From positions 1-41,982 of the IMG/VR virus record IMGVR_UViG_3300031699_000003: a stretch of DNA of 41,982 bases; one strand, 5' to 3'. Each line of letters starts with the position of its first letter. The stretch's first letter is position 1. Both the position numbers and the translations under genes were made by a program. The notes under the pieces are model-generated. The model was not told where the DNA came from. It made no database searches and worked only from the letters and a program-made list of their open reading frames with translations. Shown piece after piece: positions 1 to 41,982 of this stretch. The stretch is from a virus.

Positions 1-107
1 AGCGAATGGTGGCTCCGAAGCGGAGGCCCAAATTTGCCCTTATTGCAGTGGCGATCCTGTAATTGAATATTACGATAATAAATGGAAATGCTTTTATTGC
101 AATGGTA
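1..107 (+). repeat. Terminal direct repeat of the contig (same as 41876-41982)
   Basis: Bases 1-107 equal 41876-41982. Because the repeat also occurs at 2749-2855 inside the sequence, it may reflect circular closure, or assembly breakage at the duplicated attC-like module. The gene reading frame is continuous across the junction (41733 to 130), which favours true circularity or permutation. Confidence 0.9.
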
Positions 108-130
108 CGGGCAAACTTCACCATTCGTAA
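2..130 (+). CDS. C-terminal part of zinc-ribbon cassette protein (begins at 41733)
   Basis: This reading frame enters from the contig end and stops at TAA 128-130. The visible 42 residues contain CPYC and CFYC about 20 residues apart, a zinc-ribbon arrangement, followed by NGTGKLHHS. Joined with 41733-41982 it makes a protein of about 90 residues. The same 42 residues occur in the gene at 2534, coded by an identical DNA repeat, so the ribbon behaves as a shared C-terminal module carried on the attC-like site. Function unknown; zinc binding is inferred from the cysteines only. Confidence 0.75.
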   Translation, partial: ANGGSEAEAQICPYCSGDPVIEYYDNKWKCFYCNGTGKLHHS

Positions 131-195
131 AACGTTGTCGGCAATTCGGCCACCAAAACCGGCCCATCCGTGGGCCGGAGAATTGAAGGAGAGAG

Positions 196-366
196 ATGAT
201 AAAAAAGATTTTGGCTTTTTTTAGATTGAGTAAAACAGTGGTGTGTGAAGTATCTGCAAGCATGGGTGATTATGATTATCATGATTATCCAGACTCAATC
301 GATGGAGAGCCTTGGCACATGGTACTTTTAACGTGCAAGAGGTGCGGAAAGAGGTTTTATATATGA
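196..366 (+). CDS. Small hypothetical cassette protein with C-terminal CxxC (56 aa)
   Basis: Starts at ATG 196 behind GAAGGAGAG, ends at TGA 364-366. It has a basic, hydrophobic N-terminus (MIKKILAFFRL), an acidic Tyr/Asp-rich centre and CKRCGKRF at the end, half of a zinc knuckle. It is the first gene of the cassette starting at 134 and overlaps the next start in an ATGA-like arrangement, which implies translational coupling. The leader of this cassette (140-180) contains a GC-rich hairpin, CCGGCCCATCCGTGGGCCGG. No family recognised. Confidence 0.7.
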   Translation: MIKKILAFFRLSKTVVCEVSASMGDYDYHDYPDSIDGEPWHMVLLTCKRCGKRFYI

Positions 367-641
367 AAAAAACACATTGTGATATCTGCGATGTTGTAAT
401 CAACGATAAAAAAACAATCATCATTGAGAGGGAAAATAAAAAATTCAGGTTAACGGCGCAATACCTTACCGGAAACGGTAGGTGGAACCACATGTGGAAG
501 AATGTTGATATTTGCGATGTCTGTCTAATTTCTTTACTGGATAGCTTTGTGGAAGATCAAGAAAGCGCCGTCCCTGGCGCGGTGGCCGAACAGCCTACAA
601 CATCGCCATTATGCCAGCCGGAAGACCGGCCAGCACAATAG
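363..641 (+). CDS. CxxC hypothetical cassette protein (92 aa)
   Basis: I chose ATG 363, which overlaps the upstream stop and gives MKKTHCDICDVVINDKK; an earlier in-frame ATG at 312 lies inside the upstream gene without a ribosome binding site. Two CxxC pairs, CDIC near residue 6 and CDVC near residue 55, suggest one zinc site. The last 20 or so residues are low-complexity (PTTSPLCQPEDRPAQ) and are read through attC-like site c, so they probably reflect the recombination site and not a selected domain. Second gene of a two-gene cassette; function unknown. Confidence 0.75.
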   Translation: MKKTHCDICDVVINDKKTIIIERENKKFRLTAQYLTGNGRWNHMWKNVDICDVCLISLLDSFVEDQESAVPGAVAEQPTTSPLCQPEDRPAQ

Positions 642-656
642 CGCGGACAGTTATTT
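595..656 (+). other. attC-like site c (62 bp)
   Basis: The left core CTACAAC (595-601) and right core GTTATTT (650-656) enclose a long stem. ATCGCCATTATGCCAGCCGG pairs with CCGGCCAGCACAATAGCG through a GAAGA-like loop, with several mismatched or bulged bases. The length is close to the short class of attC. The stop codon of the gene at 363 lies inside the site. Confidence 0.8.
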
Positions 657-697
657 GCAATTTGCCTTTAAAATAATAGCCGCGCAAGGGAGGATTT

Positions 698-865
698 ATG
701 TCAATTGTTTATGAAGTTAAATGTGCTGGATGCGGAAAAGGTTTGGATGTTGAAAAAGTTTTTTTAGATTCTGCAGATGATCTTTGCGTTGAAGTTCACC
801 CATGTGAATATTGCGTTGAAGTAGCGCGGCAAGAAGGTAAGGAATCGGCAAACAGCGAAGCGTAG
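698..865 (+). CDS. Small two-CxxC cassette protein (55 aa)
   Basis: Starts at ATG 698 after GGGAGG and ends at TAG 863-865. It has CAGC near residue 9 and CEYC near residue 36, the spacing of a small zinc ribbon, with an acidic linker between. It is the only gene in the cassette starting at 650. Its last codons (KESANSEA) fall in the 35-bp conserved stretch that precedes the left core of sites d and a. Function unknown. Confidence 0.7.
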   Translation: MSIVYEVKCAGCGKGLDVEKVFLDSADDLCVEVHPCEYCVEVARQEGKESANSEA

Positions 866-881
866 CAAGAGGGCACAGCAC

Positions 882-1025
882 AAATAACAAATAAAGGGTG
901 GAAATGTGGCAACGATACACCTCAGGGACTACCTTTAATGGGACAGGTGTCATTAAGCGCAACCCGGTGCTATATCCGGGATAGTTCCCGCGTTGCCCCA
1001 CTTCACCCTTTATCAAACGTTGTGT
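882..1025 (+). other. attC-like site d (144 bp, probably not coding)
   Basis: The left core AAATAAC (882-888) and right core GTTGTGT (1019-1025) flank nested arms: AATAAAGGGTG with CACCCTTTATC, and inside them GTGGCAACG with CGTTGCCCCAC. The left core matches its own cassette start at 650 (GTTATTTG, 8 of 8). A 26-codon reading frame from the ATG at 904 to 984 sits between the arms, but it has only a weak GGGTGG before it and no recognisable product, so it is not called as a gene. Confidence 0.8.
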
Positions 1026-1056
1026 GCAATGTCAATTTTTCTGAAAGGATTATTAT

Positions 1057-1317
1057 ATGGCCGCTAAACCGAAGTTGAAGCCGTGCCCGTTCTGCGGTGG
1101 TAAGGCTGGAATATTTGGAAACGAACGTGACCACTTTTACGTGGCGTGTACTAATAAAGTATGCTTTTGTGCTTTGGGCGAAATGTATCTGCCTGGTGAC
1201 GAGCCTGACCACATGTTCGGTGATGAACCGTCTGCCGCGTACAATTGGAACGAGCGGCCTGAAGCTGTGGAAGGAAAAATTGACACGGCACACAACACGC
1301 GCAAGCCAAAACGGTAG
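1057..1317 (+). CDS. Lar-type restriction-alleviation-like zinc protein (86 aa)
   Basis: The N-terminal motif LKPCPFCGGKA, a second cysteine pair around residues 32-38 and the closing AAYNWNERPE match the Lar family layout (CPFCGG near the start and A-x-x-x-W-N-x-R near the end). Family members related to Rac prophage Lar can lower type I restriction; many phage members are untested. Starts at ATG 1057 with GAAAGGA upstream. The tail NTRKPKR is read into attC-like site e. A cassette-borne anti-restriction gene would suit a phage early operon, but that role is inferred from the family. Confidence 0.75.
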   Translation: MAAKPKLKPCPFCGGKAGIFGNERDHFYVACTNKVCFCALGEMYLPGDEPDHMFGDEPSAAYNWNERPEAVEGKIDTAHNTRKPKR

Positions 1318-1350
1318 AACCCGCATCGGCTATGCGCGGGAACGTTGGTG
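1290..1350 (+). other. attC-like site e (61 bp)
   Basis: The left core ACACAAC (1290-1296) and right core GTTGGTG (1344-1350) surround a stem of CGCGCAAGCC with GGCTATGCGCG. The left core with its flank, GGCACACAAC, is the exact reverse complement of the first bases of its own cassette at 1019 (GTTGTGTGC, 9 of 9). The Lar-like gene ends inside the site. Confidence 0.85.
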
Positions 1351-1412
1351 TCAATAAAATTTTGTCGGAATGAATTAAATAATAGCGCGCATAAGCAAAG
1401 AGAAAGACAAAT

Positions 1413-2114
1413 ATGAAAATATCATGGTTTAGCGCAGGAGTTTCAAGCGCTGTGGCAACAAAAATGGCAAACCCTGACCGTATTATATATTTCGACATTG
1501 AAGACCAGCACCCAGATACATACCGTTTTTTAAAAGATTGTGAAAAATGGTTTGAAAAAAAAATTGAGATTTATAAGTCTCCATATCGAAGCGTTGATAC
1601 GGTTTGTCGTGCGGTTCGATATTTAAATGGTCCCGCTGGCGCGGCGTGTTCACTTCGGTTAAAAAAATGGATGCGAAAAGAATGGGAGCAAAAAAACCCT
1701 GGTTGTCACACTTACATTTGGGGGTTTGATGGAACAGAAAAAAACAGAATGGAGCGCATTAAAGAATCTATTACGATGCATAACCACTTATTTCCACTAC
1801 ATGACAGAACGAAAGGTGAGGGACATGGTATTTTACGTCACGCTGGTATTTTACGTCCTGCTATGTACCGTATCGGTTTTCGGAATAATAATTGCATTGG
1901 ATGCTTACGAGGGGGGATGGGTTATTGGAACAGGATTAGGAGCCATTTCCCTGCTGTGTTTGCTTTTCGTTCTCACCTTGAGAGAGACATTGGGGCGCAC
2001 ATTTTAAAAGAATGTTATTTGGATGAGCTTGATCCAAAACGTGGGCGATTTGAAGATGAAATTTTTCCAGATTGCGGTCTATTCTGTGAAATCGAAGAAG
2101 GCGCGCAAGAATGA
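1413..2114 (+). CDS. PAPS-reductase-like PP-loop protein (233 aa)
   Basis: Residues 7-12 (SAGVSS) form the PP-loop that binds the nucleotide in the adenine nucleotide alpha-hydrolase superfamily; YFDIED and HPDTYRF follow. Near the end, NNNCIGC (158-164), GGMGYWNRIR and LDELDPKRG match a phage-encoded phosphoadenosine phosphosulfate reductase-like family. Proteins of this superfamily activate sulfate or sulfur, and relatives (DndC) act in DNA sulfur modification, but no dnd partners are present, so the substrate is unknown. This is the largest cassette gene and is followed 17 bp later by attC-like site f. The ribosome binding site is weak (AGAGAAAG). Confidence 0.75.
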   Translation: MKISWFSAGVSSAVATKMANPDRIIYFDIEDQHPDTYRFLKDCEKWFEKKIEIYKSPYRSVDTVCRAVRYLNGPAGAACSLRLKKWMRKEWEQKNPGCHTYIWGFDGTEKNRMERIKESITMHNHLFPLHDRTKGEGHGILRHAGILRPAMYRIGFRNNNCIGCLRGGMGYWNRIRSHFPAVFAFRSHLERDIGAHILKECYLDELDPKRGRFEDEIFPDCGLFCEIEEGAQE

Positions 2115-2131
2115 AGGTAAAATTTTACAGC

Positions 2132-2184
2132 CACCAACAAATGTGTTATGCAATTAAAACTGCATAACACATCGAACGTTGGTG
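2132..2184 (+). other. attC-like site f (53 bp)
   Basis: This is the clearest short site. The left core CACCAAC (2132-2138), the perfect 11 bp stem TGTGTTATGCA / TGCATAACACA and the right core GTTGGTG (2178-2184) follow each other, with asymmetric spacers between cores and stem as in attC. It lies 17 bp after the stop of the PP-loop gene and its left core matches the cassette start at 1344. Confidence 0.88.
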
Positions 2185-2216
2185 TCAATGCTTTTTAACT
2201 AAAGGAGTTCGCGCAA

Positions 2217-2477
2217 ATGTCAATTCAAGTAACAATAAAAGACGGTCATTTTATTACTCTTGATGAATTGGTTTCTATTGTCCCGCTTTCGGTTGCAGCA
2301 AAAGAATTAAAAGAGTTGCGCTCACGAATTAAGGATTTACGCTCACAAGACATCGGAACAAAAGCACAGGCCACCAACAAACAAAGTGTGCCATTAGAAA
2401 ATGTAATATGTCCTGACTGTAAATGCGATCGGGTACAATATCGTTGTTCAAATTGTGGTTTTGAGTGGTGCGACTAA
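2217..2477 (+). CDS. Zinc-ribbon cassette protein (86 aa)
   Basis: Starts at ATG 2217 after AAAGGAGTTCGCGC. Residues 1-45 are a coiled-coil-prone segment (AAKELKELRSRIKDLRSQ). A linker ATNK is encoded by the left core of attC-like site g, and residues 63-85 form a four-cysteine ribbon (CPDC, CSNC) ending FEWCD. The architecture is the same as in the genes at 2534 and 41733: variable N-terminus, ATNK linker from the attC core, zinc ribbon from the attC loop. Possibly nucleic-acid or protein binding; function unknown. Confidence 0.75.
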   Translation: MSIQVTIKDGHFITLDELVSIVPLSVAAKELKELRSRIKDLRSQDIGTKAQATNKQSVPLENVICPDCKCDRVQYRCSNCGFEWCD

Positions 2478-2503
2478 CGGCACACGTTTGTCACACGTTG
2501 CCG
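2372..2503 (+). other. attC-like site g (132 bp, coding)
   Basis: The left core CACCAAC (2372-2378) and right core GTTGCCG (2497-2503) are joined by ACAAAGTGTGCC on the left and GGCACACGTTTGT on the right, which pair fully apart from one bulged G. The intervening loop encodes the C-terminal zinc ribbon of the overlapping gene. The left core matches the start of its cassette at 2178 (GTTGGTG). Confidence 0.8.
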
Positions 2504-2533
2504 GAAATACAGGCTTATGAAAGGAGTTTTGGC

Positions 2534-2926
2534 GTGACAATTAAATCTACAACAGATAATTATGTTATGTGCGAATTGAACGGTGCAGATGAGTGCGGTA
2601 TTTGGCAATGGATGAGTAAAAGATTTGAAGGATGTAAGGTTGAAATTGAATTTGATACTGTTTTTAAAGGGTATCAGCCTGCTCCGACAATTTGGATTAG
2701 AGGTACGCCAAAACAGGGAGATCGGAACGGTGGGCCAGCCACCAACAAAGCGAATGGTGGCTCCGAAGCGGAGGCCCAAATTTGCCCTTATTGCAGTGGC
2801 GATCCTGTAATTGAATATTACGATAATAAATGGAAATGCTTTTATTGCAATGGTACGGGCAAACTTCACCATTCGCAACACGGTTGGTGTCAATCTGTTT
2901 TAACTATGAAAGGCGGCGCAAAATGA
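2534..2926 (+). CDS. Zinc-ribbon cassette protein, GTG start (130 aa)
   Basis: I place the start at GTG 2534, seven bases after AAAGGAG; a GTG at 2465 would add 23 residues across the attC-like site with no ribosome binding site. Residues 1-58 are a unique domain containing ELNGADECGIWQW. The linker ATNKANGGSEAEAQ and the CPYC/CFYC ribbon are encoded by the 127-bp repeat shared with the window ends. A CAA replaces the stop found in the other copy, so 15 residues run on beyond the ribbon into the next cassette. This looks like a fusion product of cassette exchange. Confidence 0.75.
   Translation: MTIKSTTDNYVMCELNGADECGIWQWMSKRFEGCKVEIEFDTVFKGYQPAPTIWIRGTPKQGDRNGGPATNKANGGSEAEAQICPYCSGDPVIEYYDNKWKCFYCNGTGKLHHSQHGWCQSVLTMKGGAK
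2740..2889 (+). other. attC-like site h (150 bp, coding, duplicate of site b)
   Basis: The left core is CACCAAC (2740-2746), the arms are CGAATGGTG and CACCATTCG, and the right core is GTTGGTG (2883-2889). 127 bases are identical to site b, and similarity continues upstream with two mismatches (GGGCCAGCCACC here, GGGCCTTCCACC there). Its left core does not match the start of the cassette it now ends (GTTGCCGG at 2497) but does match the cassette that carries site b, so this site was probably acquired from a relative of that cassette. Confidence 0.8.
2749..2875 (+). repeat. Internal copy of the zinc-ribbon/attC repeat (127 bp identical to 1-127)
   Basis: Exact duplicate of positions 1-127, coding for the same zinc ribbon in the same relative frame. 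The copies diverge one base after the right stem arm: TAA stop in the first copy, CAA in this one, so the protein here extends 15 residues further. Confidence 0.95.
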
Positions 2927-3132
2927 AAGCAAACAAACAAACCCCTGGCGTTGGAAAATATCTTAAATACCGCGCCGCCAAGAATTCGGAACCGGCCATC
3001 ATCCCACAACAACCGCTTTGTGGTTCGGCAAAGCCTTCACCCAAATGCTACTCCATCGGCTGTCCGGCTATTTGGCATGATAAATGTACGTCAACAATGT
3101 ACGGGAAGTGCGGTGTTCGTGATAGTGAGTAG
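2923..3132 (+). CDS. Cys-rich cassette protein (69 aa)
   Basis: Starts at ATG 2923, overlapping the previous stop (ATGA), and ends at TAG 3130-3132. The N-terminus is basic (MKANKQTPGVGKYLKYRAA). Residues 32-65 hold five cysteines, including CYSIGC, CTSTMYGKC and a preceding LCG, all encoded in the loop of attC-like site i. It is likely to bind zinc or iron through these residues. Function unknown. Last gene of array 1. Confidence 0.65.
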   Translation: MKANKQTPGVGKYLKYRAAKNSEPAIIPQQPLCGSAKPSPKCYSIGCPAIWHDKCTSTMYGKCGVRDSE

Positions 3133-3159
3133 CACTTCACAAAGCGTCGGACGTTAAAA
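3004..3159 (+). other. attC-like site i (156 bp, coding)
   Basis: The left core CCACAAC (3004-3010) and right core GTTAAAA (3153-3159) flank CCGCTTTGTG / CACAAAGCG stem arms. The loop codes for the Cys-rich C-terminus of the gene at 2923, whose stop is just before the right arm. The left core, with flank TCCCACAAC, does not match the start of its own cassette (GTTGGTGTC at 2883) but is identical to the left core of site k. Confidence 0.75.
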
Positions 3160-9608: not shown

Positions 9609-10112
9609 CTACTCCAGAATTGTGAAAGTGAATTCATCCCTCCGGTCATCAGCGAGCGTCGGCCCCTGCGGTTCCATCTCGCCCATTGACACAACAGAGA
9701 TCCGGTCTTCGTCGATTCCTCGGTTTGACAGATAGAGCTTTGCCGCGAGTCCACGGTGCTGACCCAGGGCCATGTTATACTCAAAACTTCCGATCCGGCA
9801 TGTGTGTCCCTCGATCAAAAGTTTGGAGTTCGGCTTGTCGATCATCTCTTTGTATATTTTATCCAGCTCGACCATGCTGCCCTCTCGGAGCGTCCACTTG
9901 TCAAAGTCGAAATAAATCTGGAACGGATACGAAACCTCGAACTCCTGTTTTTCCACTTCCTTTTCAACCTGTGGAGCCGGTACAACGGCTTCAGGCTCAG
10001 ACGATATAGCGTTTTCCAAAGTGTCTTCATATAATTTTTTTTTAGAGCAATCGGTTAAAATTCCAACGAGCAACACGCAAACAAAAACAATCGAATCACG
10101 TTTCCAGTTCAT
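9609..10112 (-). CDS. Pal/OmpA-type peptidoglycan-binding protein (167 aa)
   Basis: Residues 1-22 (MNWKRDSIVFVCVLLVGILT, then DCSKK) look like a signal peptide with an atypical lipobox (Asp before the Cys). Residues 60-165 are an OmpA C-terminal domain: YFDFDKWTLREGS, IEGHT, EYNMALGQHRGLAAKLYL, RISVVSMGE. In the family the motif GHTD provides the Asp that contacts peptidoglycan; here it reads GHTC, while the Arg (QHRG) is kept. Sitting among lysis-like genes, it might bridge or disturb the outer membrane-wall link, perhaps in place of a spanin. That role is inference. Confidence 0.75.
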   Translation of the reverse strand: MNWKRDSIVFVCVLLVGILTDCSKKKLYEDTLENAISSEPEAVVPAPQVEKEVEKQEFEVSYPFQIYFDFDKWTLREGSMVELDKIYKEMIDKPNSKLLIEGHTCRIGSFEYNMALGQHRGLAAKLYLSNRGIDEDRISVVSMGEMEPQGPTLADDRRDEFTFTILE

Positions 10113-30054: not shown

Positions 30055-30252
30055 TTAAACCCTCGTCAAATATCGAACCGGCTTTACCTGCCCGGCCCTC
30101 AGCATTGACTCACAAATTCGCTCAGCATACGGTGAAGGTTTGACTGTTGTAAGGTCTGGACATCGAGTATTTAATGCAAACCCACACCAAGGACAATATT
30201 TTATCCCGAGACCAACACAATGAATAGCTACCGCGCAATTTTTACAAGGCAT
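30055..30252 (-). CDS. Small zinc-ribbon protein (65 aa)
   Basis: MPCKNCAVAIHCVGLGIKYC, followed by PWCG, gives two CxxC pairs about 14 residues apart, a zinc ribbon. The C-terminus is basic (MLRAGQVKPVRYLTRV). The start is 25 bp inside the 3' end of the upstream O-antigen-ligase-like gene. Function unknown. Confidence 0.6.
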   Translation of the reverse strand: MPCKNCAVAIHCVGLGIKYCPWCGFALNTRCPDLTTVKPSPYAERICESMLRAGQVKPVRYLTRV

Positions 30253-31355
30253 TGATTCCTCCTAACCTGCCCGGCCAACCCGATGGCCGTGGCAATATAG
30301 AAAGTGTGCTCCGGTGTCCTCATGCCAAACACGAATGAGGTGATTATCGTTGCGGCAAAGGCGACACCGAGATAAAACGATTTACGGAAACAGGCGACCG
30401 TTGCGGCAGTCATCAGGAACACAAAGAAGGCAGTTCCGATGATCCCGTTTTCTGCGAGTGATTGACCGAATTCGTTATGTGGATGATAATATCTTGTTTT
30501 TGCCTTATCTGCATAATAACCCCACGTCCCAGGCCCGGCACCGAAATAAGGATTTTTCATAAACATTTCCCGCGAAACTTCAGGAAAACCACATTGATTG
30601 CGACCCCATATTGAAATTTGACCAAATGGGTTATAATCATCAAGGGATTTGTTTAGCGGCATGAACATTGCACCAATCCCGGCAAAGATCAAAAAACACC
30701 CGACCACAAGCAACCGCCTTTTTCCCTTGATCCCGCGTGAGAAGTAACAACCGCAAGCGACATACTCAAGAAAGGCCACCGCACAACCGGCCCGAGAAGA
30801 TGCGCCAACAATAGCTACAGCAGAAAGCAGTATAGCCGCAATCGCTCGTTTCCGCCACCGTTTAAACTGAAGCACATAAAAAGGAAACGGGATCAGAAAC
30901 AGAATGATATATGCGAACTTATTGCTCGCCCCGATTGTTCCGACGAAAACAGATTCATTATGCTTTGACCATGTGCCGAGATCGAAAAAAGCAAGGCCGC
31001 ACTCGATGATCAATACCACGGTCGCAATCTTGGCAACGGTCTCCAGCTTAACGTCGGACTGCCATAACCACATGATTATTCCCGTAGCCATAGCAAGCCT
31101 GGCAAGCTCCAGGTGTCCCAACATCCAGCCGCCGGTCGCAAAATAGGATCTGGTCGCCTGGTAACAAAGATAGACAATCGGGAGAAAATGGAAGTTATGC
31201 CAGACCCGCGCCCCGGTCTTGCTGATCCAGCAATAAGACCCGAGAAGCACAAGGGCCACGGTCATGGCCGATTCGCTGCCGATGCGAAGGTAAACACCGA
31301 GAACGACCGGAAGGAAGACGAAAGCAGAAAAGACGAAATAAAAAGGTTGGCTCAT
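30228..31355 (-). CDS. O-antigen ligase/Wzy-type multispan membrane protein (375 aa)
   Basis: About ten membrane spans are visible. The last third has NPYFGAGPGTWGYYADKAKT, then HPHNEFGQSLAENGIIGTAF, the signature of the Wzy/WaaL (O-antigen ligase/polymerase) family, where a periplasmic loop holds the catalytic His and Arg/Tyr. Such proteins act on lipid-linked glycans at the periplasmic face. In a phage it may change the host surface to block superinfection. It overlaps terS by 4 bp and sits between terS and terL, an unusual place. The substrate is unknown. Confidence 0.75.
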   Translation of the reverse strand: MSQPFYFVFSAFVFLPVVLGVYLRIGSESAMTVALVLLGSYCWISKTGARVWHNFHFLPIVYLCYQATRSYFATGGWMLGHLELARLAMATGIIMWLWQSDVKLETVAKIATVVLIIECGLAFFDLGTWSKHNESVFVGTIGASNKFAYIILFLIPFPFYVLQFKRWRKRAIAAILLSAVAIVGASSRAGCAVAFLEYVACGCYFSRGIKGKRRLLVVGCFLIFAGIGAMFMPLNKSLDDYNPFGQISIWGRNQCGFPEVSREMFMKNPYFGAGPGTWGYYADKAKTRYYHPHNEFGQSLAENGIIGTAFFVFLMTAATVACFRKSFYLGVAFAATIITSFVFGMRTPEHTFYIATAIGLAGQVRRNQCLVKIAR

Positions 31356-34402: not shown

Positions 34403-35281
34403 ATGAAAGACCTGAAACCAGGAATTTATACAGATATTCCGTTCGACGAATACCTGGATCTGCCTTGCTTCTCAAAGTCTTTTGTCGATCCGATCCTGAA
34501 AAGCCCGAAACACCTAAAGCATTATTTTTCGGAAAAACAAAAGTCTTCCCCGATCATGGCATTCGGCTCCCTTGTCGATGCCCTGTTGCTTGACCAGAAA
34601 GAAGTTGAACGGCGGTTTTTCAAAATCCCCGATACCTACATCAACGGAAAAGGCGAGGAAAAACCCTGGAACATGAATTCCAAATCGTGCAAACAGGCCA
34701 TTGCGGATGCGGTGGAAGCAGGGAAAGACTGCCTGAAACAAGCTGACTACGACCGGGCAGAGCTGGTCGTCAAAGCGATCATGGAACACCCCACAGCATC
34801 AAAGTGGCTCGGCGGCAAACACCAGGTTACAATAATCTGGAAAGACCCTGCAACCGGCGTGATGTGCAAAGGCCGACCGGATATTCTGATCGAGGGCGAG
34901 CGAGTGGTGGATCTGAAATGCACGGACGACCCAACACCGGGGAAATTCTCTCGGGTCGCCACGAACCTGAAGTATTATGTCCAGGCTTCAATGTACCTCG
35001 ACGGTCTGCATTGCGCTGAAACCGGCACCTATCAGACCGAGTGGAAAATTCCGTTTTCGTTCATCGCGGCTGAAGTCACCGAGCCGTTCGATGTGGTCCC
35101 GTATAACATGGAAGTCGAGAGCCTTGAAGCCGGGCGGGTGATCTTCCAGAAAGCCATCGAGCTTTATGCAGATTGTCAGTCAACAGGCCAATGGCCTGGA
35201 TATTCAAACTATGCCGAATCCCTGGAGATTCAGCAATGGGCACTCCATAAAATTTTATATGAGGGGGACAATAATGTCTAA
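34403..35281 (+). CDS. RecE-like PD-(D/E)xK exonuclease (292 aa)
   Basis: Residues 157-160 GRPD, 170-172 DLK and 194-198 QASMY give the D...D-x-K...Q-x-x-x-Y pattern of the RecE/exodeoxyribonuclease VIII-type PDDEXK family. MAFGSLVDALLL near residue 53 and HHL-like YFSEKQKSSP precede it. It chews 5' ends to make 3' single strands for annealing. It overlaps recT by 8 bp, the standard exonuclease-annealase pair. Confidence 0.75.
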   Translation: MKDLKPGIYTDIPFDEYLDLPCFSKSFVDPILKSPKHLKHYFSEKQKSSPIMAFGSLVDALLLDQKEVERRFFKIPDTYINGKGEEKPWNMNSKSCKQAIADAVEAGKDCLKQADYDRAELVVKAIMEHPTASKWLGGKHQVTIIWKDPATGVMCKGRPDILIEGERVVDLKCTDDPTPGKFSRVATNLKYYVQASMYLDGLHCAETGTYQTEWKIPFSFIAAEVTEPFDVVPYNMEVESLEAGRVIFQKAIELYADCQSTGQWPGYSNYAESLEIQQWALHKILYEGDNNV

Positions 35282-36086
35282 AAGTCTCATTCCAGTAATA
35301 GAAACGAACGCCAAACTTGAAAAGATAGCCGGGACCACAAACATGACAGCCGAGCAGGTGGCAATCGTGAAAAGCACGGTCGCAAAGAACACAACCGACC
35401 TGGAGCTGGCTTATTTTCTCAACGTGTGCCGGGTGACTGAGCTTGATCCTTTCATGAAAGAAATATGGTGTTATAAGGATAAAAAGGGAAACATGATCGT
35501 CTTTGCCGGTCGTGATGGGTTTCTTAAAAAAGCACAGAAAAACCCTGCCTTCAGTGGTATCCGGTCAAGCGAAATCAGGGAACGCGACGAGTATTCAATT
35601 GACATTCCAAACGGTAAGATCGAACACAAAATCACAGCGTTTGGTGATGAACGTGGAAAAATCATTGGTGCTTATGCGATCGTGTTTCGCAAAGAAGGAG
35701 AGCCAACGATTGAGCTTGTCGAGTTCGACACATACAATAAAAAGTACAACGCATGGGCGACACACCCCGCAGACATGATTAAAAAGGTAGCTGAGGCCCA
35801 CGCTCTTAAAAAGGCAATGGGGATCAGCAACCTTCAACTTGAAGACGATTACCGGATTCGCAGCGGGGTCGCACTTCCAGGTGGGAAAATTAAGTTCGAC
35901 CTGATAGACGAGATCGCCGATCTTCGCAAGGATGTTCAGCAGGGTTTGAATAATGAGGATTGGATTGAACAAGTCTGCATGTTGGAGTTCGGCCACGGGA
36001 AACCGAGAACCAAGGGGGAGGAAGCCCACATCAAAGAAGTTATTTCCAGCGAAAAATATAATCTTGAAACCGGGGAGTTAAAATAA
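35274..36086 (+). CDS. recT: RecT-family single-strand annealing protein (270 aa)
   Basis: Starts at ATG 35274 (GGGGG upstream); an earlier ATG at 35166 is inside the exonuclease gene. Contains DPFMKEIWCYKDKKGNMIVF, then AGRDGFLKKAQKNPAF and YNAWATHPADMIKKVAEAHA, LKKAMGISNLQLEDDY, all typical of RecT. It anneals complementary single strands during recombination or replication. Its stop is 23 bp before the start of cassette array 2. Confidence 0.8.
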   Translation: MSKSLIPVIETNAKLEKIAGTTNMTAEQVAIVKSTVAKNTTDLELAYFLNVCRVTELDPFMKEIWCYKDKKGNMIVFAGRDGFLKKAQKNPAFSGIRSSEIRERDEYSIDIPNGKIEHKITAFGDERGKIIGAYAIVFRKEGEPTIELVEFDTYNKKYNAWATHPADMIKKVAEAHALKKAMGISNLQLEDDYRIRSGVALPGGKIKFDLIDEIADLRKDVQQGLNNEDWIEQVCMLEFGHGKPRTKGEEAHIKEVISSEKYNLETGELK

Positions 36087-36131
36087 AAACAAGGGCATCT
36101 TTTGGACAGTTGTGGGAAAGGAGCCTATAAA

Positions 36132-36419
36132 ATGAAAATCGCGGCCTATGAAAAGTATCCGGTTCGAGAATGTCGTTCAATGCACTCATGTGCTGAGTGT
36201 GGTAAAGATATTAAACTTGGTGATTTTTACAGGGATGGAGGCTACGGTCGTCGGGTGCATGAAATTTGCTTTCAGGCCGCGAAGATGGAAAAGGAATATA
36301 AGGAATCGGCTCCCATCCCACAACAAACGAATGGTGAAACCTGTACATGTCATTTGATGGGCGGCGGTAAAATGTGTAAGCATTGCCTTAATAAAATAAT
36401 TGGTGGTACTTTTATATAG
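36132..36419 (+). CDS. Cassette protein with two zinc-type Cys sets (95 aa)
   Basis: ATG 36132 follows AAAGGAGCC. RECRSMHSCAECGKDIKLGD near residues 12-33 is a zinc knuckle also seen in other phage proteins. The C-terminus ETCTCHLMGGGKMCKHCLNK is encoded within attC-like site k. First cassette of array 2. Confidence 0.65.
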   Translation: MKIAAYEKYPVRECRSMHSCAECGKDIKLGDFYRDGGYGRRVHEICFQAAKMEKEYKESAPIPQQTNGETCTCHLMGGGKMCKHCLNKIIGGTFI

Positions 36420-36445
36420 GCATCACCATTCGTCGCACGTTGTAT
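36318..36445 (+). other. attC-like site k (128 bp, coding)
   Basis: The left core CCACAAC (36318-36324) and right core GTTGTAT (36439-36445) flank arms CGAATGGTGA and TCACCATTCG, which are also the arms of sites b and h. The loop encodes a Cys-rich C-terminus. The left core with flank, TCCCACAAC, is the exact reverse complement of its cassette start GTTGTGGGA at 36109. Confidence 0.85.
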
Positions 36446-36489
36446 GCAAAAATCGCTTACCATAATAGCCGGGAGCTAAGGAGGTACAA

Positions 36490-36693
36490 ATGGATAAACA
36501 GGTAGTTTCAATTAATGGCGGTCATGCGGTAAAAGATGGAGATTCATTGCATCTTTATCGGGATGTCGGAGATAGGTTTTCACGGTATCACGGTTTTCAT
36601 ATTTTTCGCGCCGATTTAATTAAAATATTACCTTTGTTTGACATTAAAATTTTGGTTGAAAATGAAAAGCATAACGACGATTTACCTTTCTAA
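36490..36693 (+). CDS. Small cassette protein (67 aa)
   Basis: ATG 36490 follows AAGGAGGT. Sequence SINGGHAVKDGDSLHLYRDV then GFHIFRADLIKILPLFDI, beta then helix. No Cys pairs. The gap to the next site (36694-36752) carries a 35-bp motif shared with sites a and d but no gene. Confidence 0.6.
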   Translation: MDKQVVSINGGHAVKDGDSLHLYRDVGDRFSRYHGFHIFRADLIKILPLFDIKILVENEKHNDDLPF

Positions 36694-36752
36694 TCCGCTC
36701 CCGGCAGAGATCGGAACGCGATTTCAGAGAAGCGTAGCAGGGAGTAAGGCAC

Positions 36753-36810
36753 ATACAACAAGCCGAAGTGATGCCATTAAAACAGGCACACATTCGGCAG
36801 CACGTTCTGT
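36753..36810 (+). other. attC-like site l (58 bp)
   Basis: The left core ATACAAC (36753-36759) and right core GTTCTGT (36804-36810) flank arms GCCGAAGTGATGCC and GGCACACATTCGGC, with two mismatches. The left core matches its cassette start GTTGTATG at 36439. About 60 bp separates it from the stop of the upstream gene. Confidence 0.82.
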
Positions 36811-36840
36811 GCAAGCCGGGCTAATTAAAGGAGCGCGCCA

Positions 36841-37152
36841 ATGAATTTTATTAATCGTAAAAAGGTAAAAACAAGGAAGCCACATTATTGTACTGGCTGT
36901 ATGGATATTATTCCATCGGGGTCAATGGTAATTCGAGACACTCTTGTCGATGGTGAAATATATTCCGTTTATTTTTGTGATATTTGTGAAAAGGTTTTGG
37001 AAGAATATGGAAATGATATTGAGGAATTTTCAGAAGGTGATTTACGTGAAACAACTGTTTATGAATATTGGTATAAAAAGAGGCGCGCTGAGAAATCGGA
37101 ACGCCCGGCCAACACAGAACAGCGTCATGGTGCAATTAAAAAAGCACCATAA
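36841..37152 (+). CDS. Zinc-knuckle cassette protein (103 aa)
   Basis: ATG 36841 follows AAAGGAGCGCGCC. HYCTGCMDIIPSGSMVIR, then VYFCDICEKVLEEYG gives two CxxC pairs 40 residues apart, as in a family of phage proteins that begin with a chelating pair. The tail (ANTEQRHGAIKKAP) runs through site m. Function unknown. Confidence 0.65.
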   Translation: MNFINRKKVKTRKPHYCTGCMDIIPSGSMVIRDTLVDGEIYSVYFCDICEKVLEEYGNDIEEFSEGDLRETTVYEYWYKKRRAEKSERPANTEQRHGAIKKAP

Positions 37153-37167
37153 CGCAACACATTAACC
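37114..37167 (+). other. attC-like site m (54 bp, A in place of core G)
   Basis: The left core ACAGAAC (37114-37120) and right core ATTAACC (37161-37167) flank GCGTCATGGTGC / GCACCATAACGC. The left core matches the cassette start GTTCTGTG at 36804 over 8 bases. The A at 37161 replaces the G next to the expected crossover, so this site may no longer be a good substrate. Confidence 0.78.
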
Positions 37168-37197
37168 AAAATACCGGCTTATGAAAGGAGTTCGCTT

Positions 37198-37446
37198 GTG
37201 GATGATTTGAAATTAGAAGCATGTAAAACGTGCGGTGGAATTCCAGCAGTTGTAACTTATAACTCTGGTCAAAAATTAATCAGGTGTAAGTGCGGAATGC
37301 AGACAAGTACCAAGTTAACAGTTCGTGCTGCTGCCGATATTTGGAATGGTTATCATGAGCCTTCGTTAAAGGAAGTAATGGTCGATCTTTTATCTGAAAT
37401 ACGCTCACTAAATCAGCGGAACGCCGGTCCTTCGGTTAACAAATAA
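37198..37446 (+). CDS. Lar-like zinc protein, GTG start (82 aa)
   Basis: GTG 37198 follows AAAGGAGTTCGC. ACKTCGGIPAVV, then IRCKCG near residue 28 and VRAAADIWNGYH near residue 45 give the CPxCGG ... C-x-C ... A-x-x-x-W-N pattern of the Lar-like family. A likely role is countering type I restriction, as in the cassette at 1057. Two independent Lar-like cassettes in one genome are notable. Its tail is encoded in site n. Confidence 0.6.
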   Translation: MDDLKLEACKTCGGIPAVVTYNSGQKLIRCKCGMQTSTKLTVRAAADIWNGYHEPSLKEVMVDLLSEIRSLNQRNAGPSVNK

Positions 37447-37563
37447 ATGGTTCAATTGTCGGCCCTGGATAATCGCGGTGATGGCCACGTCAAGGTCCAA
37501 CGGTGGAGGTCCGGTTCGACTCCGGTAGGGGCCGCCAACTGCACCATTTATCACACGTTGTGG
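37434..37563 (+). other. attC-like site n (130 bp) enclosing a tRNA-like sequence
   Basis: The left core GGTTAAC (37434-37440) and right core GTTGTGG (37557-37563) flank ATAAATGGT / ACCATTTAT arms. The left core corresponds to its cassette start ATTAACC at 37161 (TTAACC matches). The terminal loop holds a 77-nt tRNA-like sequence in place of a zinc-ribbon coding loop. Confidence 0.8.
37461..37537 (+). tRNA. tRNA-like sequence inside attC-like site n, possibly degenerate
   Basis: The 3' half is convincing. A GGTTCGACTCC T-arm with four stem pairs is followed by an acceptor strand AGGGGCC, a discriminator G and an encoded CCA. The 5' end GGCCCTG pairs with the acceptor strand at six of seven positions, including one wobble. 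A 4-bp stem GGCC/GGTC with loop ACGTCAA would give anticodon GTC (Asp), but the base before the anticodon is C rather than the usual T. The D-arm is short and poorly formed and the variable region is long, so this may be a decayed or non-canonical tRNA. Folding with tRNAscan-SE or Infernal would decide. Confidence 0.4.
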
Positions 37564-37596
37564 CACATGCCGCCTAATATGAAAGGAGTTAGCGCT

Positions 37597-37923
37597 ATGG
37601 AAAATACACAACTTATGGCTGAATATAAAAAGCACATGATGATATGTAAGAGACCTGTATTGCCAACGTCTGAATTTACATATCATACCACACATTATGT
37701 TCTTTGGTTAGAAAAGGAAGTGGAAAAGGCTCGCGCAAACTCCAAACATAAGAACGGCGGCACGGAAGCGGCAAGTGGGGCAGAGCAGCCACAACAACCG
37801 CAGGGCGAAATTTTTGAATCTCTTGACAGGCTAGAATATTGTTCTCCAAAATCAGAGCCGTGGATTGCTGAAAATGCAAAATTTTTACGAAGCGAGATTA
37901 AAAAACTATCGCCCGTGCGGTAA
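37597..37923 (+). CDS. Cassette protein with acidic/Glu-Pro tail (108 aa)
   Basis: I choose ATG 37597 behind AAAGGAG; the longer frame from 37447 would read through the tRNA-like sequence. Residues 1-45 are helical (MENTQLMAEYKKHMMICKRP, LWLEKEVEKARANSKH). A Gly/Gln/Pro-rich linker (GAEQPQQPQGE) follows, and residues 75-108 are a separate helical unit encoded by site o. Function unknown. Confidence 0.6.
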   Translation: MENTQLMAEYKKHMMICKRPVLPTSEFTYHTTHYVLWLEKEVEKARANSKHKNGGTEAASGAEQPQQPQGEIFESLDRLEYCSPKSEPWIAENAKFLRSEIKKLSPVR

Positions 37924-37932
37924 ACGTTGTCC
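37789..37932 (+). other. attC-like site o (144 bp), last site of array 2
   Basis: The left core CCACAAC (37789-37795) and right core GTTGTCC (37926-37932) flank arms ACCGCAGGGCGA and TCGCCCGTGCGGT. The left core with flank GCCACAAC is the exact reverse complement of the cassette start GTTGTGGC at 37557. The loop encodes the C-terminal 40 or so residues of the gene at 37597. Confidence 0.85.
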
Positions 37933-41368: not shown

Positions 41369-41436
41369 ACAGAATGTAAAAGGTGCATAATACGTCTAGT
41401 TATTTTCAATGTGAATTATCTATAGGAGACGGCACT

Positions 41437-41703
41437 ATGGGATATGAGGGATATGCGGATGAAAGGGTTAGATGTGATGTGTGTGGAAAATTTATCGCAT
41501 CATCTGAATATAAGCAAGGACTTGCTTGGGACGATATGCACTTTCCCAATAAAAGTTACCATCTCAAATGCAAGCCCGTGCCGTTAAGAAATAGGAACAT
41601 TCACACAGCGAAGCGTAGCAAGGGGCATAGCACAAATAACAACCGTATGAGTGCCATGCGAAGCGCACAGCATCATACTTTCCCGTTGGTGTCGCTTCGC
41701 TAA
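41437..41703 (+). CDS. Zinc-knuckle cassette protein read through its attC-like site (88 aa)
   Basis: I start at ATG 41437 (AGGAGACGGC upstream) rather than 41383, which lies before the cassette boundary. RCDVCGKFIASSEYKQG, then SYHLKCK gives a CxxC pair with a partner Cys. The last 40 residues (TAKRSKGHSTNNNRMSAMRS) are read through site a and its flank and are probably not selected. First cassette of array 1. Confidence 0.65.
   Translation: MGYEGYADERVRCDVCGKFIASSEYKQGLAWDDMHFPNKSYHLKCKPVPLRNRNIHTAKRSKGHSTNNNRMSAMRSAQHHTFPLVSLR
41634..41691 (+). other. attC-like site a (58 bp)
   Basis: The left core AAATAAC (41634-41640) and right core GTTGGTG (41685-41691) flank an imperfect stem. The left arm CCGTATGAGTGCCATGCG pairs with the right arm CGCACAGCATCATAC with unpaired bases, as in folded attC. 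The left core is the reverse complement of the start of its own cassette at 41399 (GTTATTT, 7 of 7). The 35 bp upstream of the left core is nearly identical to that upstream of site d. Confidence 0.8.
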
Positions 41704-41732
41704 AGCCCACCTATTTATAAAAGGAGCGCAGA

Positions 41733-41982
41733 ATGAAATTTATAAAAGTAAAGCCTTGGCGGTCTGGTCTTGACGGTGAAATGGTGAGGGTGGAAGTGGA
41801 TTTAACGCAAAGCGAATTTTTGGAGTTAAATATTGCACTCAAAGAATTGCGGAACGGTGGGCCTTCCACCAACAAAGCGAATGGTGGCTCCGAAGCGGAG
41901 GCCCAAATTTGCCCTTATTGCAGTGGCGATCCTGTAATTGAATATTACGATAATAAATGGAAATGCTTTTATTGCAATGGTA
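41733..41982 (+). CDS. Zinc-ribbon cassette protein, 5' part (continues at 2-130)
   Basis: ATG 41733 follows AAAGGAGCGC. The first 45 residues (KVKPWRSGLDGEMVRVEVDL, then TQSEFLELNIALKELRNGG) resemble an alpha-beta domain. After a STNKANGGSEAEAQ linker comes the CPYC...CFYC ribbon. The frame continues across the contig junction to TAA at 128-130, about 91 residues in all. The 3' half is encoded by attC-like site b. Confidence 0.7.
   Translation, partial: MKFIKVKPWRSGLDGEMVRVEVDLTQSEFLELNIALKELRNGGPSTNKANGGSEAEAQICPYCSGDPVIEYYDNKWKCFYCNG
41867..41982 (+). other. attC-like site b, left part (completed at 1-140)
   Basis: The left core CACCAAC (41867-41873) begins a long site whose right core GTTGTCG lies at 134-140 after the contig junction, giving about 149 bp in circular reading. 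Stem arms are CGAATGGTG and CACCATTCG. The stretch between the arms codes for a zinc ribbon in the overlapping gene. The left core matches the start of its own cassette at 41685 (GTTGGTG, 7 of 7). From AGCGAATGG onward the site is identical to site h for 127 bases. Confidence 0.75.

Follow-up and report, generated by a model that had tools for sequence, protein, structure and literature searches.

Two probable hybrid cassettes, with proposed joins at short shared ends, in a phage-borne cassette array without an integrase

Introduction

Clusters of cassettes that lack an integrase (CALINs) have been described in phage genomes, where they mostly keep a single orientation (Qi et al. 2023, PMC9892861), and in class 1 integrons fused cassettes are known that result from the loss of an attC site (PMC4670013). 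The locus described here has features of both. Like the phage CALINs (PMC9892861), it is a cluster of attC-ended cassettes without an integrase in a phage, but it differs from them in having 14 cassettes in two blocks, attC loops that code for the C-terminal parts of proteins, ends that are shared between cassettes, and two putative hybrids; this is a comparison of organisation, with no sequence relation to the published set demonstrated. Like the fused class 1 cassettes (PMC4670013), two of its members appear to have a front and a back of different parentage. Whereas the class 1 fusions keep two complete genes, here a single open reading frame (ORF) joins a front to a tail, and the join lies at an element common to many cassettes. 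The attC architecture, the matching of cassette starts to their own cores and the variability of those cores are all found in four chromosomal integrons with which the locus was compared (L066, L087, L089 and L091). The kind is known from bacterial integrons; what is unusual in this phage is the in-frame swap of a tail together with the shared ends.

The start of a cassette (its first seven to eight bases) normally pairs with the left core of its own attC site. A first-pass annotation of this DNA had pointed to two neighbouring cassettes, here called P and R, that break this own-core rule, and we examine below how they may have come about.

Results

The window, by which we mean the whole stretch of DNA analysed, is a virus contig of 41,982 bp. 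Its ends overlap exactly over 107 bp and, given this terminal overlap, the genome is probably a closed circle of 41,875 bp. Phage genes encode a Terminase_3 large subunit, an SU10-type capsid protein, RecT, a PDDEXK protein and a DnaB-like helicase; the gene for the RecT-family annealing protein (35259..36086, + strand) lies immediately upstream of the first cassette block. The phage also codes for an OmpA-domain protein (9609-10112) and an O-antigen ligase-like (Wzy_C) membrane protein (30228-31355). Compared with 50,697 phages, the terminase stayed below 40% identity among the matches listed, and terminase and capsid queries returned no close relatives from viral contigs.

Fourteen attC-ended cassettes, all on the + strand, are set in two blocks between the phage genes. 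Block 1 (36109..37925) consists of A (36109), B (36439), C (36804), D (37161) and E (37557), all of which obey the own-core rule. Block 2 runs from 41399 across the contig ends to 3152 in the order X, Q, I1-I5, P, R. It opens with X (41399..41684, start GTTATTTT) and Q (41685..41982 and, if the genome is circular, onward to 1-133), which starts with GTTGGTGTC and has its left core, CACCAAC, at 41867; the right part of the Q attC (site b, 1..133) reaches the next start core, GTTGTCGG, at 134. There follow I1 (134..649, start GTTGTCGG, with one mismatch in its left core), I2 (650..1018, start GTTATTTG), I3 (1019..1343, start GTTGTGTG), which carries a Lar-type restriction alleviation protein (PF14354), I4 (1344..2177, start GTTGGTGT) with a PAPS-reductase-like phage gene, and I5 (2178..2496, again starting GTTGGTGT), which has a zinc-ribbon-like tail in its attC loop. 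The two cassettes of particular concern, P (2497..2882) and R (2883..3152), come last.

Each cassette carries one site with the anatomy of an attC, in which paired outer cores (...AAC / GTT...) flank a long imperfect hairpin, and all 14 sites point in the same orientation. Run blind, an independent hairpin detector called 12 sites within the cassettes (9.2 kb), against 1 elsewhere on that strand (32.7 kb) and 2-4 over the full length of the opposite one. The cores depart from the strict GTTRRRY form, being mostly GTTGNNN or GTTANNN; a search for the strict form overlooked the sites because the cores are relaxed, and GTTRRRY was not taken as defining. The chromosomal integrons compared also deviate from it (GTTATAG and GTTATTT, for example), and the idea that a deviant core betrays a new recombinase was rejected, since similar cores occur in ordinary integrons. 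A complete integron has an IntI gene and an attI site, and no match to the PF00589 tyrosine recombinase family was found anywhere in the record. The array is a CALIN carried by a phage.

Several further features of the array can be recorded here. Long attC loops code for Cys-rich C-terminal parts of ORFs, several with CxxC pairs (36318-36445, 2372-2503, 41867-140, 2740-2889 and 3004-3159), and the attC left core is itself translated as a linker in these ORFs (PQQ, ATNK or STNK). The tails are called zinc-ribbon-like from their paired Cys motifs, Pfam giving no match above its cut-offs. The attC loop of D (37460-37534) resembles the 3' half of a tRNA, with the T-arm GGTTCGACTCC; its match to tRNA-Sec is weak (15 bits, E 1.6) and ARAGORN called no tRNA. 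D (37161-37556) also holds a Lar-like protein, weaker than that of I3, and the Lar-type proteins of I3 and D suggest a counter-defence cargo. The PAPS-reductase-like gene of I4 (1413-2114) sits within a cassette here; no attC arrays were detected in 14 viral contigs with homologues of this gene, and none was seen in the three that were read. When the flanks of block 1 (36109 / 37926) are joined, they form TGGACA-GT-TGTCCA, an empty site whose 6-bp arms are perfect. Roughly 1% of randomly chosen places are as good, and this palindrome is a possible insertion target for block 1.

The match between each start and its left core was scored at the four informative positions (4-7). Eleven of the 14 cassettes match at all four and I1 (134) at three, whilst P and R match at two, which is the commonest value for unrelated ends. 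When left cores were shuffled among the cassettes, perfect matches averaged 2.1 and never exceeded 9 in 100,000 shuffles. Clean runs of adjacent cassettes in chromosomal integrons (~15 pairs) match at 6/6 or 5/6 positions and contain no failure like those of P and R; this baseline is small, as most of the integron-bearing genomes fetched had few or no cassettes, and doubtful-looking runs, for example ones with calls on both strands, were left out by judgement. The failure of the own-core rule at P and R exceeds chance, though it amounts in each to two of the seven core bases, GTTG being common to nearly all cores.

In P, the left core (CACCAAC, 2740-2746) does not match the start GTTGCCGG, as the first-pass annotation had reported; the two disagree at two of the four informative positions. 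It opens attC site h (2740..2889), which spans the end of P and the start core of R and has an additional G ahead of GTTGGTG. The back of P is shared with Q as a module (2723..2882), in which 14 identical bases from CGGAACGGTGGGCC are followed by two differences (2737-2738) and then by 137 identical bases, after which come two substitutions and the extra G ahead of the right core of h. The module had been put at 127 bp, and its actual length is ~160 bp; sites b and h, which had been described as exact duplicates, share the 137-bp and 14-bp identical stretches but are not identical from end to end. The cassette of site b, Q, does have a GTTGGTG-type start (GTTGGTGTC), as had been said, and obeys the own-core rule. 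Since Q obeys the rule with this module and P does not, the module is of Q type.

The frame of the module is open in both cassettes (RNGGP(A/S)TNKANGGSEAEAQICPYC...KCFYCNGTGKLHHS), and the N-terminal parts of the two proteins have no similarity. The P ORF (2534..2926, 130 aa, + strand) thus consists of an unrelated N-terminal part, the linker RNGGPATNK and a zinc-ribbon-like tail coded inside the attC loop. P has CAA in place of the TAA stop, and its ORF runs beyond the attC to a TGA that overlaps the ATG of R (2923-2926). At its other end, the P leader AAATACAGGCTTATGAAAGGAGTT (2505-2528) equals the leader of D (37169-37192) at 23 of 24 positions, with different cores adjacent. Judged by these resemblances, P is a mosaic at both ends, with a leader like that of D and a back like that of Q. 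The reading of P as a hybrid, in which an unrelated N-terminal part would have been joined in frame to the 3' module of Q and the own-core rule gives the polarity of the donor, is well supported.

R, the shortest cassette (270 bp), has ~27 codons ahead of its attC (3004..3159), whose loop codes for the Cys-rich C-terminal part of the R ORF (2923-3132). Its start, GTTGGTGTC, resembles those of the cassettes at 2178 and 1344, and its first 40 nt resemble those of I5, the GTTGGTG cassette at 2178. Its left core, TCCCACAAC at 3002-3010, had been described as failing to match its own start and matching that of the cassette at 36109 instead. Both points stand, but 36109 is not the sole fit: the core agrees with the start of A, GTTGTGGGA, over 9 bases and with that of E (37557), GTTGTGGC, over 7 bases. 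The end of R, TTCGGAACCGGCCATCATCCCACAACAACCG, resembles the end of A. It is reasonably supported, from these likenesses, that R is a hybrid whose 5' end is as at 2178 and whose 3' core is as at 36109/37557. We rejected a hairpin-templated repair of h that would have rewritten the start of R, as this start continues like I4/I5 past the core.

The ends at which such joins could occur recur across the array. Six cassettes whose genes are unrelated (C, D, Q, I5, P and R) have the hexamer CGGAAC 17-18 nt ahead of the left core, against about 0.011 placements expected at that distance. The hexamer occurs in all three codon phases, which argues that it is conserved as DNA and not as protein. A second end element, GAAGCGTAGCA, lies 24 nt ahead of the core in B, X and I2, and a common 5' leader after the start core is also found in cassettes with unrelated genes. 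The homology between P and Q starts precisely at CGGAAC. As its left limit is a common short end, that end is the better candidate for the seam than the long module. By eye, and among few cassettes, no repeated leader or end element was seen beside the cores of the four chromosomal integrons.

Searches for parents and relatives returned little. No cassette combining the start GTTGCCGG with the left core CCGGCAAC, the expected parent, was found in the viral, genome-contig or phage collections searched. Exact-pattern scans of viral contigs for the module, the seam and the P/D leader gave no matches, and the C/I5 leader pattern gave six, in other contexts and with the expected sites missing. Searches with the Q and P proteins found nothing in viral contigs or in the phage collection, and one short, chance-like match in genome contigs. 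Of the putative parents only Q, for the back of P, is present.

Discussion

We read the misfits, the common module, its polarity and the shared ends as the marks of two hybrid cassettes that recombined at short shared ends, and give this reading a probability of about two in three. P and R each combine features of different cassettes at front and back, P having the leader of D and the back of Q, and R the front of I5 and a core of the A/E kind. The front of one cassette would have been joined by recombination to the back of another, that is, to its end element and attC, and the joins would lie within short common stretches of DNA, namely the 5' leader after the start core and the CGGAAC element 17-18 bases ahead of the attC left core. 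P would have taken its back from a Q-type cassette, so that a new N-terminal part became fused in frame to the Q linker and zinc-ribbon-like tail. The shared ends are inferred to be the crossover points of both cassettes.

An integrase cuts at G/TT and would hold a start and its left core together, so that integrase action alone does not explain these joins. The most economical explanation is annealing or homology-based recombination at the short shared ends, for which the phage's own RecT is a candidate catalyst; template switching or a host pathway would produce an identical pattern. The cassettes themselves may first have been brought in by a host integrase acting in trans. Against the hybrid reading weigh the failure to find the parental cassette in any collection searched, the shortness of the shared ends, which at 6-14 bp are little for homologous recombination, the single genome, the difference of only two bases between the cores, and the uncertainty of the assembly within the repeated module. 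The homologous exchange across the duplicated module that had been suggested earlier would account for P; it does not for R, since the window contains the 3' module of R only once.

The main rival is a deletion that fused former neighbours, with loss of the first attC and the second start, in two separate events that gave P and R. In class 1 integrons, fused cassettes have been documented that arose when the first attC was lost (PMC4670013), and the shortness of R is what such a loss might leave. P is of normal length, however, neither cassette has by eye a remnant of a lost inner core, and an intact copy of Q survives elsewhere, which would demand a duplication of the module as well. We consider deletion unlikely. 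The first-pass annotation had offered a hybrid or a deletion; the hybrid part is supported, whilst deletion and exchange are inseparable from one genome.

Drift is a good deal less probable. P and R would then be ordinary cassettes with point mutations in the start or the left core, as the small number of differing bases and the one such change already present in I1 might suggest. Two neighbours with two changes each are unlikely, however, when drift in the other twelve is by our own estimate one change in ~72 positions; moreover, both the start and the left core of R agree with other families of cassettes over 8-12 bases, and the module of P is a recent copy of that of Q. An assembly artefact is the least probable explanation: the 107-bp terminal overlap sits inside the repeated module, where the joins to its right could have been exchanged, but the copies differ at 2737-2738, 2876, 2879 and 2882-2883, the left flank of P joins its own variant, and R is misfitted without any repeat. 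Site b is split over the contig ends and exists only when the overlap is closed, and, given the position of that overlap, the way the right halves are paired (P to R, Q to I1) is less certain than are the joins on the left; the misfits of P and R are independent of the closure.

The hybrids would also fit a broader and rather doubtful idea, in which the phage maintains cassette shells with a fixed 5' leader and 3' end, and moves gene bodies and the tails encoded in attC from one shell to another, perhaps by means of RecT. The origin of integron cassettes is, to our knowledge, unsettled. An array with visibly recombined fronts, backs and cores, whose polarity the own-core rule supplies, is a place to test cassette formation and domain shuffling outside the integrase, and it adds a further case of phages carrying and reshaping cassettes. 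If true, shell swapping would be an integrase-free route to new cassettes and protein fusions, made on the phage.
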